Below, in pieces: positions 942-13,457 of a stretch of 22,850 nucleotides of DNA; position 1 is the stretch's first letter, and each line of letters starts with the position of its first letter. The notes under the pieces are model-generated. The model did not search any database, had not been told where the DNA came from, and saw only the letters and a program-made list of their open reading frames with translations. Origin of the DNA: a virus; the IMG/VR virus record IMGVR_UViG_3300010370_000262, positions 1 through 22,850 of that record. One strand, written 5' to 3'. Made by a program: the position numbers and the translations under genes.

Positions 942-949
942 TATATTTG
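942..949 (+). promoter_or_regulatory. -7 promoter box TATATTTG
   Basis: The octamer TATATTTG matches the Bacteroidota -7 element TAnnTTTG exactly. A TTG at 923-925 lies 16 nt upstream, slightly closer than the usual -33 spacing. It directly follows the last codon of the 36-aa ORF. Two nt after the box is an ATG opening an 11-codon ORF, and a terminator lies about 50 nt further on. It would drive a transcript of about 95 nt, or longer on readthrough. Confidence 0.5.
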
Positions 950-951
950 CT

Positions 952-987
952 ATGTATATGGCTGTTGCAGAGCTATATTGTTATTAA
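952..987 (+). CDS. Possible 11-codon leader peptide, Tyr-rich
   Basis: Two nt after the TATATTTG box, an ATG opens an 11-codon ORF (MYMAVAELYCY) ending in TAA at 985-987, just before the terminator hairpin at 998-1047. Three of its eleven codons are Tyr (TAT). A promoter, a short peptide and a terminator upstream of a large gene are the parts of a transcription attenuator. An ORF this short readily arises by chance, and I know of no phage replication gene controlled this way, so this is a candidate only. Confidence 0.25.
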   Translation: MYMAVAELYCY

Positions 988-997
988 GAAATTATTG

Positions 998-1048
998 AAA
1001 GCTCATTGGGGGAAGTACTGCAACTGCTGAACCTAATGGGCTTTTTTG
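998..1048 (+). terminator. Rho-independent terminator before the replication gene
   Basis: AAAGCTCATTGGG (998-1010) pairs with CCTAATGGGCTTT (1032-1044) over 13 positions, including two G-T wobbles, and the downstream arm runs into a six-T tract (1042-1047). The loop is about 21 nt. Inside it, CTGCAAC (1018-1024) is the exact complement of GTTGCAG (964-970) upstream, so a pseudoknot-type contact is possible. It could end the upstream operon, end a short RNA started at 942, or act as an attenuator for the replication gene. Confidence 0.75.
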
Positions 1049-1065: not shown

Positions 1066-2040
1066 ATGAGCCAAGAAAATCAAGGTTACATAAGTCTACA
1101 CAGGAAGGTAATGCAGAACTTTCTATTTAAGGAAAAACGCGCTTTTTCAAAGTTTGAAGCATGGCTTTATTTATTGATGAATGCCAACCATACGGACACA
1201 AAAGTTTTGCTAGGCAACCAATTGATAGATGTAAAAAAAGGCTCGTTTATTACCTCAGAAATCAAATTAATGGCTGAATTTTCATGGTCAAAAAGTAAGC
1301 TCAGGACTTTTCTAAGTCTGCTCGAAAGTCAATCAATGATTGAAAAAGTTACTGATTCAAAAAAGACCACCTTAACCATAGTAAAATATAGCGATTACCA
1401 AGAGCATCAGACCGCAAAAAAACCGCAAAAAAACCGCAAGCCGACTGCAAAAGAACTGCGTTCCGACACAGACAATAATGAGAATAATGATAATAATGAA
1501 AATAATATTACTAATCCTACTGAAGTAGAATTAGTATTGGAGCCAAAACTCAATTTTCAAGATTTTAACGATCCTATTTTAGCTGAAAAATTATGGTCGC
1601 AATGGGTTAGGTATAAACACACTCAACACAAAGAAAAGTACAAGGAATTAGAAACGGAGCAAACAGCAATCAATGCCTTGAATAAAATTTGCGGGGGAAA
1701 TAGCCAACTTGCTCAAGAAATCATTGATCAGTCAATATCAAGCCTTTGGAGAGGCCTATTTAAATTAAAATCAACTCAATCAAATAACAATCAAATAACA
1801 ACTCAAAATGGAACACAACCAAAACAACAGCGTCACGCATTCATCCTCAAAACTCTTAGAAATTTGGAGCGCCTCGGAACATTCAATTCAAGACAAGTTG
1901 AAATCGCGGAATATTATCTTGAGCACGCAACAGGTCCAATCAATTCTGAAGAGTTCTTCGCAAGACTTGAAAAACTCGATTGGAGCAGTCCAGAGTTTCA
2001 TCCTGAAAACATTGGAAGTACGTTACGGATTGGAGAGTGA
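1066..2040 (+). CDS. Phage replication protein, DnaD-like winged helix
   Basis: This is probably the replication initiator or replisome organiser, which binds the phage origin and recruits host helicase. The ATG at 1066 is preferred over the upstream TTG (1006) and ATG (1036), which lie inside the terminator hairpin. The first ~95 residues (GYISLHRKVMQNFLF, WLYLLMNANH, GSFITSEIKLM, then YSDYQ) match the N-terminal winged helix of phage replication proteins. A low-complexity Asn/Asp/Glu linker follows (DNNENNDNNENN). A C-terminal domain (W.QWVRYK..QHKEKYKELET..TAINAL, ending SLWRGLFKLK) is also typical of these proteins. The last 233 nt overlap another open frame, and the end may be affected by a frameshift. 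The linker coding contains 11-bp tandem repeats with A7 runs. Confidence 0.85.
   Translation: MSQENQGYISLHRKVMQNFLFKEKRAFSKFEAWLYLLMNANHTDTKVLLGNQLIDVKKGSFITSEIKLMAEFSWSKSKLRTFLSLLESQSMIEKVTDSKKTTLTIVKYSDYQEHQTAKKPQKNRKPTAKELRSDTDNNENNDNNENNITNPTEVELVLEPKLNFQDFNDPILAEKLWSQWVRYKHTQHKEKYKELETEQTAINALNKICGGNSQLAQEIIDQSISSLWRGLFKLKSTQSNNNQITTQNGTQPKQQRHAFILKTLRNLERLGTFNSRQVEIAEYYLEHATGPINSEEFFARLEKLDWSSPEFHPENIGSTLRIGE
1411..1440 (+). repeat. 11-bp tandem repeat with two A7 runs
   Basis: ACCGCAAAAAA occurs twice in tandem (1411-1421, 1422-1432), followed by a partial third copy (ACCGCAAG). The period is not a multiple of three, so each copy is read in a different phase. A7 runs lie at 1416-1422 and 1427-1433. 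The first is read as gcA AAA AAA, the form of a -1 slippery heptamer. Confidence 0.8.
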
Positions 2041-10268: not shown

Positions 10269-10805
10269 ATGGAAAAGAAAGAGAAAAAACCAAGAGCACC
10301 AAGGAAAAAGCCTAGTCCATTAACAAAGGCCGGGCAACCAAGAAAGAAAACAGGTGTCCCAACGGTGAAGAATACGCCTGAAAAATTTGAGTTGCTTTGC
10401 CAAATGATTGAGATTGAGGGGATTAGCGCAATTAAAGGCATCAAAAGGCTTGGTTTAAGCACTGATATGTTCTATAAATGGCTAAATGAGGACGAAAATA
10501 ACGCGAAAAAATACGCGCGTGCGGCTGAAATACGTAGCGAAATGATATTCGAGGAGATGCTCGATATTGCCGATAAACAGGACAAAGACGTGTACATTGA
10601 TGCCGATGGAAAGGAGCGAACAGACCATAATGTGATTCACCGCAACAAGCTACAAATAGACACGCGCAAGTGGTATTTATCAAAGATAATGCCTAAGAAG
10701 TACGGCGATAAGGTCGACATTACAACCAACAATCAAAGCCTAAACGCCCCGAAAGGAATTGAGCTAAACGATGACCAAATAACGAAGCTCATTGACAAGC
10801 TATGA
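10269..10805 (+). CDS. terS: Terminase small subunit
   Basis: TerS recognises phage DNA and presents it to the large subunit for cutting and packaging. The 178-residue protein has a very basic N-terminus (KKEKKPRAPRKKPSPLTKAG) and then a helix-turn-helix at about residues 51-72 (GISAIKGIKRLGLSTDMFYKWL). A helical oligomerisation region follows (KYARAAEIRSEMIFEEMLDIAD), and the RNKLQIDTRKWYLSKIMPKKYGDKVD element is strongly conserved in small terminases of this type. The ATG at 10269 is chosen over the upstream TTG because it follows the terminator and yields the normal start. Its end overlaps the TerL frame by 14 nt. Confidence 0.88.
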   Translation: MEKKEKKPRAPRKKPSPLTKAGQPRKKTGVPTVKNTPEKFELLCQMIEIEGISAIKGIKRLGLSTDMFYKWLNEDENNAKKYARAAEIRSEMIFEEMLDIADKQDKDVYIDADGKERTDHNVIHRNKLQIDTRKWYLSKIMPKKYGDKVDITTNNQSLNAPKGIELNDDQITKLIDKL

Positions 10806-12147
10806 TGAAATAAAGCCATTACTGCAATCGGCCGCACGAAGTAATTTCGTTGCGTTCTGTTTCTTCTATGACTATGACTTTTTCAAATCACGTCCATATC
10901 TCAAAGAAATTGCACAAGCATTTCAGGACGTTGATGATGGAAAAATCAGAACGTTAGCAGTGTCATTACCACCCCGAGCAGGTAAATCCTACATAACCTC
11001 ATTGTTTTGTGCTTGGACGCTTGGAAAGCATCCAACTGAAAGCGTAATGAGAAACACCTGTACTGCTACTCTTGCTCAAAAACTGTCGTACGATGCACGC
11101 GACATTGTGCGATCAGAAAAATTCATGCAGGTATTTCCCGAAGTAAGGCTATCGGATGACCGAGGCAGTGTTGACGCTTGGTCGACTAATTACTCAAAGC
11201 AAGTCGGTTATTTTGGCCGAGGCGTTGGCGGTACAATTATTGGTTTTGGTGCAAGCAAGTTAGCTATTACCGATGACCTTTTTAAATCCATGGAGGACGC
11301 AATGAGCGAAACCATACGCGAAAAAACGCACTCATGGAAAGAGTCAACACATGATTCACGTAAAGAAAGTGGATGCGCTGAGATTGATATTGGCACGCGT
11401 TGGACCCGAGATGATGTCATTGGTAAAAATACCGAGCAAGGTTATTACGATAAGCAAATCATTGTGCCAGCACTAATTGAGCAAGATGGTGAGTTGCATT
11501 CCTTTTGTGAGGCTGTAATGACAACCGAGGAGTATTTGCGTAAACGCCAAAAGACCCGTGAGGAGATTTGGATGGCCGAATACATGCAGCAGCCTGTTGA
11601 CATTAAAGGCCGTTTATTTGAGCACTTACGCACGTTCAAAGACCTTGACGCGGTTTATAAACACAGCCAAGGCGCATTTGCTTACATTGACGTAGCTGAC
11701 GAGGGAAACGACTTTCTTTGCATGGTTTTGGGCCATGTGGTCAATAAAGACGTGTACATTACAGATGTGGTATTTACAAAGGCAAATACTGACGTAACTA
11801 TTCCGATGTGCGCCGAGCTACTCAATAAACACAACGTGCCGTATTGTCGTGTCGAAACCAATGGCATGGGCGCAATATTCGTGAAGTCTTTGCGTAAGGA
11901 AACCAAGACGGGTATTTTGCCTATTATCAACAACCAAAACAAGGAAACCAGAATACTGATGAATAGCAGCTATGTGCTGCGCAAATTTAGATTTAGAGCC
12001 GAGCCAATAGGCGAATACGCGCAGTACATTCACCAGCTTAAAGGCTATCAAAAAGAGGGTAAGAATAAGAATGATGATGCGCCCGACGCAACAACGGGTC
12101 TTGCATTGATGGTAAACGCTTTCTTGCCGAGCTTAGATTCCGAGTAA
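10792..12147 (+). CDS. terL: Terminase large subunit
   Basis: TerL is the ATP-driven DNA packaging motor and headful nuclease. In 451 residues it shows Walker A LPPRAGKS (59-66), Walker B LAITDD (D161, D162), and RNase-H-type nuclease residues: D300 in AYIDVADEGND, E355 in VETNGMG, and the DDAPDATTG cluster at 428-436. There is no ATG near the beginning. The TTG at 10792, inside the end of TerS, is the only good start before the conserved LLQSAARSNFVAF, so translation is probably coupled to TerS. Its last 15 nt overlap the 3' end of the portal gene on the opposite strand, an unusual convergent layout. Confidence 0.93.
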   Translation: MTSYDEIKPLLQSAARSNFVAFCFFYDYDFFKSRPYLKEIAQAFQDVDDGKIRTLAVSLPPRAGKSYITSLFCAWTLGKHPTESVMRNTCTATLAQKLSYDARDIVRSEKFMQVFPEVRLSDDRGSVDAWSTNYSKQVGYFGRGVGGTIIGFGASKLAITDDLFKSMEDAMSETIREKTHSWKESTHDSRKESGCAEIDIGTRWTRDDVIGKNTEQGYYDKQIIVPALIEQDGELHSFCEAVMTTEEYLRKRQKTREEIWMAEYMQQPVDIKGRLFEHLRTFKDLDAVYKHSQGAFAYIDVADEGNDFLCMVLGHVVNKDVYITDVVFTKANTDVTIPMCAELLNKHNVPYCRVETNGMGAIFVKSLRKETKTGILPIINNQNKETRILMNSSYVLRKFRFRAEPIGEYAQYIHQLKGYQKEGKNKNDDAPDATTGLALMVNAFLPSLDSE

Positions 12148-13314
12148 TTTGCGCATCTCCTCAGTGTTAAGTGGAGTAAGCTCGTTGATTTTAGACACTG
12201 CCTCAGCACGTTTAAGCAATGATTCAGCATCTTTTTTCTCATCTGCTTTCAATACCGATATGTGTGAAAAGTCAGGAACTAGGTACATGCCTTGTTTATC
12301 GAGCCCAAGTTGCTTTGTAAACTCATCGTACATGATTTGTGTGTCGGGAATAATAGTTGAGTTGTACGCCTGACGCTCCCCCATTTCAACGTTGGAAAAT
12401 GTGGAACCTTTACCGCCTTCACCTTGACCAAACATGTGTTGGTTCAGGCCGTATTCATCAATGATGGCTATTTTATCGGCGGTCATTTCCTCAAAAAGCA
12501 TCAAATCTTTTGTTGGAAATGTCATTGGGTCAAACTTCAAAGGCTTATCAGTTACCACAATCTCGCCTGAATGCCTGGCCTTAAGGTCTTCGCGTATTTG
12601 CTTAATGTCTTTAGGCTCTAAAGGCATAGCTGAGATACCGTCTTTGTTATCGCTCGATAAAATACCCAAACTGAAGAGGTTTGCAAGTAGCACATTTCTT
12701 TTTTCGTACTGCTTTTTTAGGTTGCTGATAGGGTAGCGCAAAGAGTCAATCTTTGACTTTGTGTTGAACAAATTAATACCATCCGGTTCGGTTAGGTAAA
12801 TGACATCCTGAGGATAAAAATCTTTATACGTATCAACAACCGATGTGGGTATTTGAAATTTCTCAATGAAGCTACCCATATCTACACTGATGAGGTTCTT
12901 GCCTGTTGGCACAATCTTGACGTTATTGAACGACAAAGGCAGCATCTGTTTAGCACCAAACGAGCCCATTGGTGCATAAATCAAAGCGTTATTTGTAACG
13001 CATTTATTCACAGCCGTCATGTAAATCATGGTTCCCCATGACTGCATAGCGTTAGGGCGGTCAATCAATCCAAAGATGTTGTTGCCGTTCGGCTTAATGC
13101 GCTCACCTTTGTCATTTACAATCATTGGATTTGCCGAAGCCACCATCTTTGCATAGCGATTAATCACAGCGTGAAGCTCGGGGATTTCATAGTAAAGGGC
13201 AAACTTGTCTGTTGTTGATACCCATACAGGAGAGACAACGCCAATTTGCTGAGTTGTGTAATAATTTGGGTTAGACCATCCTAGCAAACCGCGCAACCTC
13301 GTCATTAAATCCAT
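12133..13314 (-). CDS. Phage portal protein, inverted orientation
   Basis: The portal forms the dodecameric ring at one capsid vertex through which DNA enters. The protein (393 residues from the ATG at 13314: MDLMTRLRGLLGW) shows the portal pattern. The N-terminal part has FALYYEIPELHAVINRYAKMVASAN and NIFGLIDRPNAMQSWGTMIY; the C-terminal part has MLFEEMTADKIAIIDEYGLNQHMFGQGEGGKGSTFSNVEMGERQAYNSTIIP, typical of the clip/crown region. A GTG at 13386 in the same frame would add 24 residues encoded by apparent promoter sequence and is not preferred. It is the only gene here on the minus strand, between TerL and the protease, with its own divergent -7 box. Its 3' end overlaps TerL by 15 nt. Confidence 0.9.
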   Translation of the reverse strand: MDLMTRLRGLLGWSNPNYYTTQQIGVVSPVWVSTTDKFALYYEIPELHAVINRYAKMVASANPMIVNDKGERIKPNGNNIFGLIDRPNAMQSWGTMIYMTAVNKCVTNNALIYAPMGSFGAKQMLPLSFNNVKIVPTGKNLISVDMGSFIEKFQIPTSVVDTYKDFYPQDVIYLTEPDGINLFNTKSKIDSLRYPISNLKKQYEKRNVLLANLFSLGILSSDNKDGISAMPLEPKDIKQIREDLKARHSGEIVVTDKPLKFDPMTFPTKDLMLFEEMTADKIAIIDEYGLNQHMFGQGEGGKGSTFSNVEMGERQAYNSTIIPDTQIMYDEFTKQLGLDKQGMYLVPDFSHISVLKADEKKDAESLLKRAEAVSKINELTPLNTEEMRKLLGI

Positions 13315-13334
13315 TGAAAAAAGTTTATTTGCAA

Positions 13335-13342
13335 CAAATTTA
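13335..13342 (-). promoter_or_regulatory. -7 box TAAATTTG for the portal gene
   Basis: Reading the minus strand, TAAATTTG (13342 to 13335) fits TAnnTTTG and lies 20 nt upstream of the portal ATG at 13314. It is back-to-back with the plus-strand box at 13346-13353. No TTG occurs at the usual -33 distance. Confidence 0.45.
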
Positions 13343-13345
13343 TAA

Positions 13346-13353
13346 TAATTTTG
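13346..13353 (+). promoter_or_regulatory. -7 box TAATTTTG for the protease/capsid operon
   Basis: TAATTTTG fits TAnnTTTG and lies 17 nt before the ATG of the 28-aa ORF at 13371. With the opposite box at 13335-13342 it forms a near-palindrome CAAATTT...AATTTTG, so one protein bound here could affect both promoters. A TTTG at 13328-13331 is only 14 nt upstream. Confidence 0.45.
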
Positions 13354-13370
13354 AGGCTTAAAGGTAAGCA

Positions 13371-13457
13371 ATGGACAAATTGACACCCAAACAACTAGAG
13401 GCTATTAAGGACGTTAAGACCAAACAAATGGCCGAAAATGAAACTGTAAAGAAATGA
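13371..13457 (+). CDS. 28-aa basic peptide before the protease
   Basis: A 28-codon ORF (begins MDKLTPKQLEAIKDVKTKQM, ends in KK) lies between the divergent promoter and the protease gene. Its stop overlaps the protease start as ATGA at 13454-13457. It is an all-helical, Lys-rich peptide. I recall similar tiny K..I...K peptides at this position in related phages, but cannot verify that. It may serve mainly to couple translation, or be a small structural or scaffold peptide. Confidence 0.6.
   Translation: MDKLTPKQLEAIKDVKTKQMAENETVKK

Follow-up and report, generated by a model that had tools for sequence, protein, structure and literature searches.

A predicted RNA element of Bacteroidota phages with kissing loops between a 5' hairpin and a terminator

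Is the short intergenic stretch ahead of the replication gene of an uncultured phage an RNA element in its own right, and, if so, would it act on that gene or elsewhere? We examined this question in IMG/VR virus record IMGVR_UViG_3300010370_000262, positions 1 to 22,850; these 22,850 bases are referred to as the window. The original prediction was of a structured RNA that runs from its own promoter to its own terminator and precedes the replication gene, and the analysis described below supports this; the gene is DnaD-like. Comparative sequence evidence indicates that the stretch is a genuine RNA element, not catalogued before, of Bacteroidota-infecting phages and that it probably governs the amount of transcription reaching the replication genes.

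Anatomy of the element in the window

Inspection base by base confirmed the TAnnTTTG box and the run of six T that had been described at the two ends of the element (Table 1). In flavobacteria (Flavobacterium psychrophilum), the TAnnTTTG box occupies positions -12 to -5 (PMC9723704). Because of this spacing, transcription is predicted to start near 954 rather than 950, and the RNA would be approximately 94 nt long (954-1047), close to the 95 nt first proposed. RNAfold placed P1 at 956-963/971-978, P2 at 997-1010/1032-1045, and an inner P3 with a 7-nt loop at 1014-1017/1025-1028, with a minimum free energy of -29.4 kcal/mol (z = -2.2). The P2 pairs 1001-1010/1032-1041 followed directly by six T have the make-up of an intrinsic terminator, and a terminator is predicted here; a simple terminator scan missed this hairpin, as its loop limit was 8 nt.

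Table 1. Coordinates of the element and of the genes around it in the window
Feature	Coordinates	Strand	Basis or remark
-7 box TATATTTG	942..949	+	Bacteroidota sigma-A type; predicted transcription start ~954
11-codon ORF MYMAVAELYCY	952..987	+	Judged chance, outside the element
P1 5' strand ATATGGCT	956..963	+	5'-terminal hairpin; fold and covariation in relatives
Kissing strand 1 (P1 loop GTTGCAG)	964..970	+	Partner 1018-1024; complementarity kept while sequences differ in relatives
P1 3' strand AGCTATAT	971..978	+	Fold
A/T-rich unpaired linker	979..1000	+	ATTATT motif 991-996, kept by the majority of relatives but altered in cultured phages
P2 5' arm	1001..1010	+	Terminator hairpin; fold adds pairs 997-1000/1042-1045
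P3 5' strand AGTA	1014..1017	+	Fold and member-by-member parse
Kissing strand 2 (P3 loop CTGCAAC)	1018..1024	+	Fold and covariation
P3 3' strand TGCT	1025..1028	+	Fold and member-by-member parse
P2 3' arm	1032..1041	+	Terminator hairpin; fold and covariation
T-tract (six T)	1042..1047	+	Intrinsic terminator; the short RNA is predicted to end here
DnaD-like helicase loader (downstream replication gene)	1066..2040	+	ATG ~27 nt past the GG of the terminator stem (most frequent distance in the family, 25-30 nt)

The exact complementarity of GTTGCAG and CTGCAAC was likewise confirmed. Because each of these 7-mers coincides exactly with the loop of one of the hairpins, we interpret them as a loop-loop (kissing) pseudoknot in which both hairpins stay intact. 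The proposal that the leader forms interleaved stems thus holds for the complementarity, which covaries in relatives, but not in the sense of mutually exclusive structures; the complementary loops would kiss with both hairpins formed, compatible with the terminator and not as an alternative stem.

Two smaller features of the prediction did not persist in relatives. The 11-codon ORF with its three Tyr codons is present in the window but is not conserved and was assigned no role, and the suspicion that it is a chance occurrence was borne out, its ATG (952-954) lying ahead of the predicted start site and its frame not being kept. The idea of a translation-sensed attenuator is contradicted by the relatives: only 21 of 92 members (among the matches listed) have an ATG close to the start, ORF lengths vary, and 11 codons are found in the window alone. 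Leader-peptide attenuation was rejected on these grounds. GAGCT (970-974) and AGCTC (1000-1004) are complementary as described, but their proposed use as an antiterminator was discarded because the 5-nt match recurs in only 13 of the 92 (among the matches listed).

Relatives and covariation

Relatives were collected by using the replication protein of the window as a search query, and one of them, L002, carries the same element. A descriptor scan of loci found by protein homology alone identified the element in close relatives of the window, with many different loop words. In L003, L004, and L005, the leaders differ in sequence but not in architecture, their loop pairs including GGTCCGAC/GTCGGACC and GAGTCTC/GAGACTC. 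A family pattern consisting of the box, an ATTATT linker, and a T-tract matched at least 120 loci in viral contigs. At least 92 distinct environmental phage sequences passed the test for complementary (kissing) loops, and they use at least 33 different kissing words. These 92 members are biased toward the searched pattern, so conservation of ATTATT and of the T-tract can be judged solely from independent loci: the ATTATT motif is kept in the protein-homology loci and absent from cultured phages, and the T-tract is kept in the protein-homology loci, in cultured phages, and in members found with a covariance model.

The common layout is TATATTTG, the 5' hairpin P1, a linker, the terminator hairpin P2/P3, a T-tract, and a gene about 27 nt further on. 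In type A (the window, L040, L058, L121, and others), AGUA and GAA flank P3 and loops of 6 to 7 nt are fully paired, whereas type B has a UGAA/GGAU internal loop and a kissing helix of 8 to 9 bp; L132, L167, L078, and L134 fall outside both types. The window has the features of the family and can be aligned with its type-A relatives L040, L058, and L121. The internal loop between P2 and P3 is conserved and non-canonical in both types, bulged-G and loop-E-like in type A (e.g., L121:1262-1349+) and of the tandem G-A kind in type B (e.g., L104:2078-2174-); in the window, the clear AGUA/GAA form has been lost. Read by eye, some type-B members have an open frame through linker and terminator; because it is interrupted in other members, we regard it as arising incidentally from structural conservation.

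The original prediction had named compensatory changes in related phages as a check, and these are strong for P1, P2, P3, and the loop-loop helix. Among 66 aligned type-B members, 94.4% of the pair cells, kissing helix included, are paired, compared to 33-45% when the partners are slid, and both-sided changes occur in 22 of 25 pairs. The kissing helix itself is 95.6% paired in the same 66 members, with double compensatory changes at seven of its eight pairs. RNAalifold recovered P1, P2, and P3 from the type-B alignment unprompted. From the type-A alignment it chose the kissing helix over P1/P2, which we attribute to the shift in register between members with 6-nt and 7-nt loops. Type A was therefore parsed member by member. 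This parse gave a wrong, overlapping stem for L084, L085, and L088, the stems of which the descriptor scan placed as expected. The type-A P3 stems vary as GUG/CAC, GCA/UGC, GAG/CUC, GGA/UCC, GGG/CCC, and others, alongside several distinct kissing words. With a covariance model built on type B, members that were not used for training were recovered, among them L129 (82 bits), L132 (55 bits), and Cellulophaga phage phi18:3 (47 bits, E = 6.7e-7 in its own genome, E-values being rough); the window scored 29 bits. Altogether, comparative structure gives solid support for a conserved kissing pseudoknot predicted between the two loops. The diversity of the kissing pairs is 0.43, compared to 0.53 for P1, 0.53 for P2, and 0.65 for P3; diversifying selection on the kissing words, in the style of incompatibility groups, was rejected because the kissing pairs are the less diverse, a pattern more in keeping with a structural role than with an arms race over specificity.

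Cultured phages were searched with the downstream replication proteins, and the gap ahead of the matching genes was read. The element was found in seven, Cellulophaga phages phi13:2, phi18:3, phi19:1, and phi19:3, Polaribacter phage Danklef_1, and Flavobacterium phages 11b and morran9-1, with descriptor scores of 31 to 37 and additional kissing words; all of these are phages of Flavobacteriaceae. A poor possible match in Cellulophaga phage Nekkels_1 did not pass the member-by-member parse and was left out of the count. The parts that were read of Riemerella phages GDF21, PT03, and CRP6, Flavobacterium phage elemoA, Leeuwenhoekiella phage Arctus_1, Bacteroides phage LoVEphage, Dulem virus 39, and one Vibrio phage did not show the element. 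From the promoter type and these relatives, the hosts of the uncultured phages are presumably Bacteroidota as well.

A pattern scan of genomes gave 62 matches, the sole convincing member being L178, a contig of an uncultured Bacteroidetes metagenome-assembled genome; the element, in the form searched, is thus rare in host genomes. Flavobacteriaceae genomes contain a look-alike, TATATTTG ... AAGGATTATTCC ... terminator, that adjoins Cas9 genes and lacks the kissing loops. Cas9-adjacent loci of the form TATATTTG...CACAATAAGGATTATTCCGTTGTG...terminator are L193:2494-, L210:6954-, L211:4999+, L217:5152-, and L220:2281-. The look-alike had no Rfam match at E-values up to 1 and is most likely a type II-C tracrRNA; because it lacks kissing loops, we take the ATTATT that it has in common with the element as coincidence.

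Genomic position and candidate functions

Position relative to promoter and gene is regular. The first paired base of P1 lies within -1 to +2 of the predicted start site in 85 of 92 members (among the matches listed), so the RNA is expected to begin with P1. The next ATG follows 24 to 32 nt past the terminator GG in most members (among the matches listed). The upstream gap is more variable: among the matches listed, it exceeds 25 nt in 27 of 86 and 100 nt in 20 of 86. An upstream stop codon lies no more than 12 nt away in 52 of 86 (among the matches listed), often 4 to 11 nt from the box. A second TAnnTTTG box within about 50 nt past the terminator is present in just three of the 92 (among the matches listed). 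A promoter belonging to the replication gene itself was rejected for that reason, the TAAATTTG that precedes ATG 1066 in the window not being shared. Since there is no other nearby promoter, mRNA of the downstream gene must cross the terminator of the element.

What lies behind the leader varies. The 64 downstream proteins include DUF6291 (23), three DnaD-like PHROGs (17, 15, and 14), and an O-like PHROG (13), in sets that overlap, together with HNH (6), ParB_N (1), and PAPS reductase (1). The replication proteins among them thus come from several unrelated families (DUF6291, DnaD-like, and O-like), and the leader is kept while the downstream gene changes. In L127, L129, L132, and L148, two elements of different subtypes and loop words head two transcription units on one contig (L127:1588+ and 3957+; L129:7983- and 5944-; L132:1071+ and 2821+; L148:1983- and 106-).

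Several observations concern the neighborhood in the window. L004 is 98% alike to the window over 827-949, up to the last base of TATATTTG, and has a different leader beyond it, and L005 matches over 918-949 and diverges directly after 949. In L004 (box at L004:3247-3254), the homology that breaks at 949 resumes in the C-terminal part of the replication gene, and leader and most of that gene have been exchanged as a cassette. The replication gene overlaps the next ORF (1808-2572) by approximately 230 nt (1808-2040) in different frames. This overlap is kept in L003, L004, and L005, so that otherwise different replication proteins have a common C terminus, a possible case of dual coding. Further along, at 10792-13386, the terminase large subunit (10792-12147, +) and the portal protein (12133-13386, -) are in an orientation unusual for a phage head module.

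Because the downstream genes lack a promoter of their own, we favor, over an RNA acting elsewhere and with moderate confidence, a cis-acting attenuator or leader of early phage operons in which the kissing loops set termination. In such a mechanism, transcription would start near 954 from TATATTTG, and the first transcribed bases would fold into P1; after the A/T-rich linker, the terminator hairpin P2 capped by P3 would form, and pairing of the P1 and P3 loops would tether the RNA's 5' end to the terminator. At the T-tract, most polymerases would let go of a compact RNA approximately 94 nt long, and the remainder, in a proportion either fixed or under regulation, would continue into the replication gene. 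The kissing interaction would set the level of termination, and the control input would be a protein, a ribosome, or a further copy of the RNA that binds or disrupts it. Some points count against attenuation. The fold holds no conserved alternative antiterminator, the kissing helix being compatible with the terminator; the tight downstream spacing could partly reflect genome compaction, and the upstream stop codon is likewise close in 52 of 86; upstream transcripts could also read into the downstream gene; and some copies of the element stand before genes with no link to replication. An unlikely extension of this attenuator is a self-sensing switch, in which the terminated 94-nt RNA would kiss new leaders so that termination tracks the number of phage genomes. 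If true, many families of Bacteroidota phages, whose replication proteins differ, would use a single-strand equivalent of the antisense copy control known from plasmids.

A trans-acting small RNA is a possible but doubtful alternative. Here the terminator would work fully, the 94-nt RNA locked by its kissing loops would act on host or phage RNAs or proteins, and the replication gene would be transcribed by read-through from upstream. The precise 5' hairpin and 3' terminator, a kissing helix that joins both ends and would give a stable RNA, and a conserved unpaired linker all agree with this. However, no seed is conserved family-wide, the linkers of cultured phages differ, and the constant spacing to the ATG of a gene without another promoter is not what it would lead one to expect. 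In the phage DNA examined, complements or copies of the loops numbered 8, compared to 7.7 expected, and complements of the linker 0, compared to 2.3 expected; trans targets of loops or linker above chance were accordingly not found there.

Antitermination of the kind known from put RNAs, by which the folded leader would bind its own RNA polymerase and make it ignore later terminators at the head of early operons, seems improbable to us. It would explain why the element sits directly behind promoters, is folded, is independent of the following gene, and sometimes occurs twice per phage, and the conserved non-canonical internal loops of both types suggest a binding surface; unlike put elements, though, the element closes with a good predicted intrinsic terminator. 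We give slightly less credence still to a passive insulator that would stop upstream transcripts, allow a fresh start, and stabilize mRNA 5' ends without regulation. The short distance from the upstream stop codon to the box and the 5'-terminal hairpin would suit that role, but insulation alone would require neither a kissing helix that covaries nor internal loops that are conserved. Plasmid-style antisense control, in which an opposite-strand counter-transcript would trigger leader termination, matches the location before replication genes, the terminator, and the complementary loops, yet it is very improbable given that opposite-strand TAnnTTTG boxes within 400 nt numbered 20, compared to 28.7 expected. 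Finally, chance stems in A/T-rich intergenic DNA are refuted by the covariation and by the descriptor scan, in which the window element scores 36, a value reached by 0 of 111,049 random TAnnTTTG boxes (19 of which reach 31 or more, with box, P1, complementary loop, and T-tailed stem); chance suffices for the ORF and the GAGCT/AGCTC pairing alone.

Comparison with known systems

No Rfam 15 family matched the window or 16 relatives at the gathering cut-off, and no description of the element was found in the open-licence literature. The comparative data thus point to a new family of structured RNAs, unusual in that a 5' hairpin would kiss the terminator. Gene regulation in Bacteroidota phages is little known, and this element is widespread, uncatalogued in Rfam 15, supported by very strong covariation, and found at the head of early operons of uncultured and cultured phages alike. 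Should it determine how much transcription enters replication genes, phages with unrelated replication proteins would have a control point in common, and the cultured carriers make the element directly testable.

The put RNAs of phage HK022 are cis-acting, folded RNAs found directly behind early phage promoters, two per phage, and they bind the polymerase that made them so that later terminators are ignored; we know of no put element with a built-in intrinsic terminator. The element resembles them in being a folded RNA directly behind early phage promoters, with two copies in some phages, and differs in its terminator and predicted kissing pseudoknot. In ColE1 RNA I/RNA II and TAR-TAR*, fully paired loops of 6 to 8 nt form a kissing helix, by which ColE1 controls its replication. 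Fully paired hairpin loops forming a kissing helix are the likeness to both. Unlike in these systems, the kissing would occur within one molecule and not between an RNA and its antisense, and an antisense promoter is not enriched. The c4 RNAs of phages P1 and P7 and the CI RNA of P4 are short, are derived from leaders of phage operons, and have loops complementary to the same transcript; the leader of the P4 CI immunity RNA precedes replication genes and acts through early termination. The element is similar in being the leader RNA of a phage operon with loops complementary within the transcript, and its position fits P4. Here, in contrast, the two complementary stretches both form hairpin loops, within a single compact 94-nt RNA that has its own terminator, the hosts are Bacteroidota, and the c4 covariance model RF01695 was not matched. 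As for a separate target of the c4 type, complementarity in the element is internal, and loop complements elsewhere were not in excess in the phage DNA examined.

The c4 antisense RNA (RF01695) is listed in PMC2864571 together with 6S-flavo (RF01685) and Flavo-1 (RF01705), noncoding RNAs of Bacteroidetes; the latter two come from the same host phylum as the element and gave no match in the Rfam 15 scans. For flavobacteria, leader-peptide and riboswitch attenuators have been reported (PMC9723704). The element resembles these as a 5' leader with promoter, structure, and terminator before a gene, and differs in having no conserved leader peptide, known ligand, or mutually exclusive antiterminator. 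Altogether, we infer that it acts in the manner of a phage attenuator or leader RNA, outside the leader-peptide and counter-transcript classes as tested, and that, unlike the flavobacterial attenuators, it would have its terminator loop tied to the 5' hairpin.
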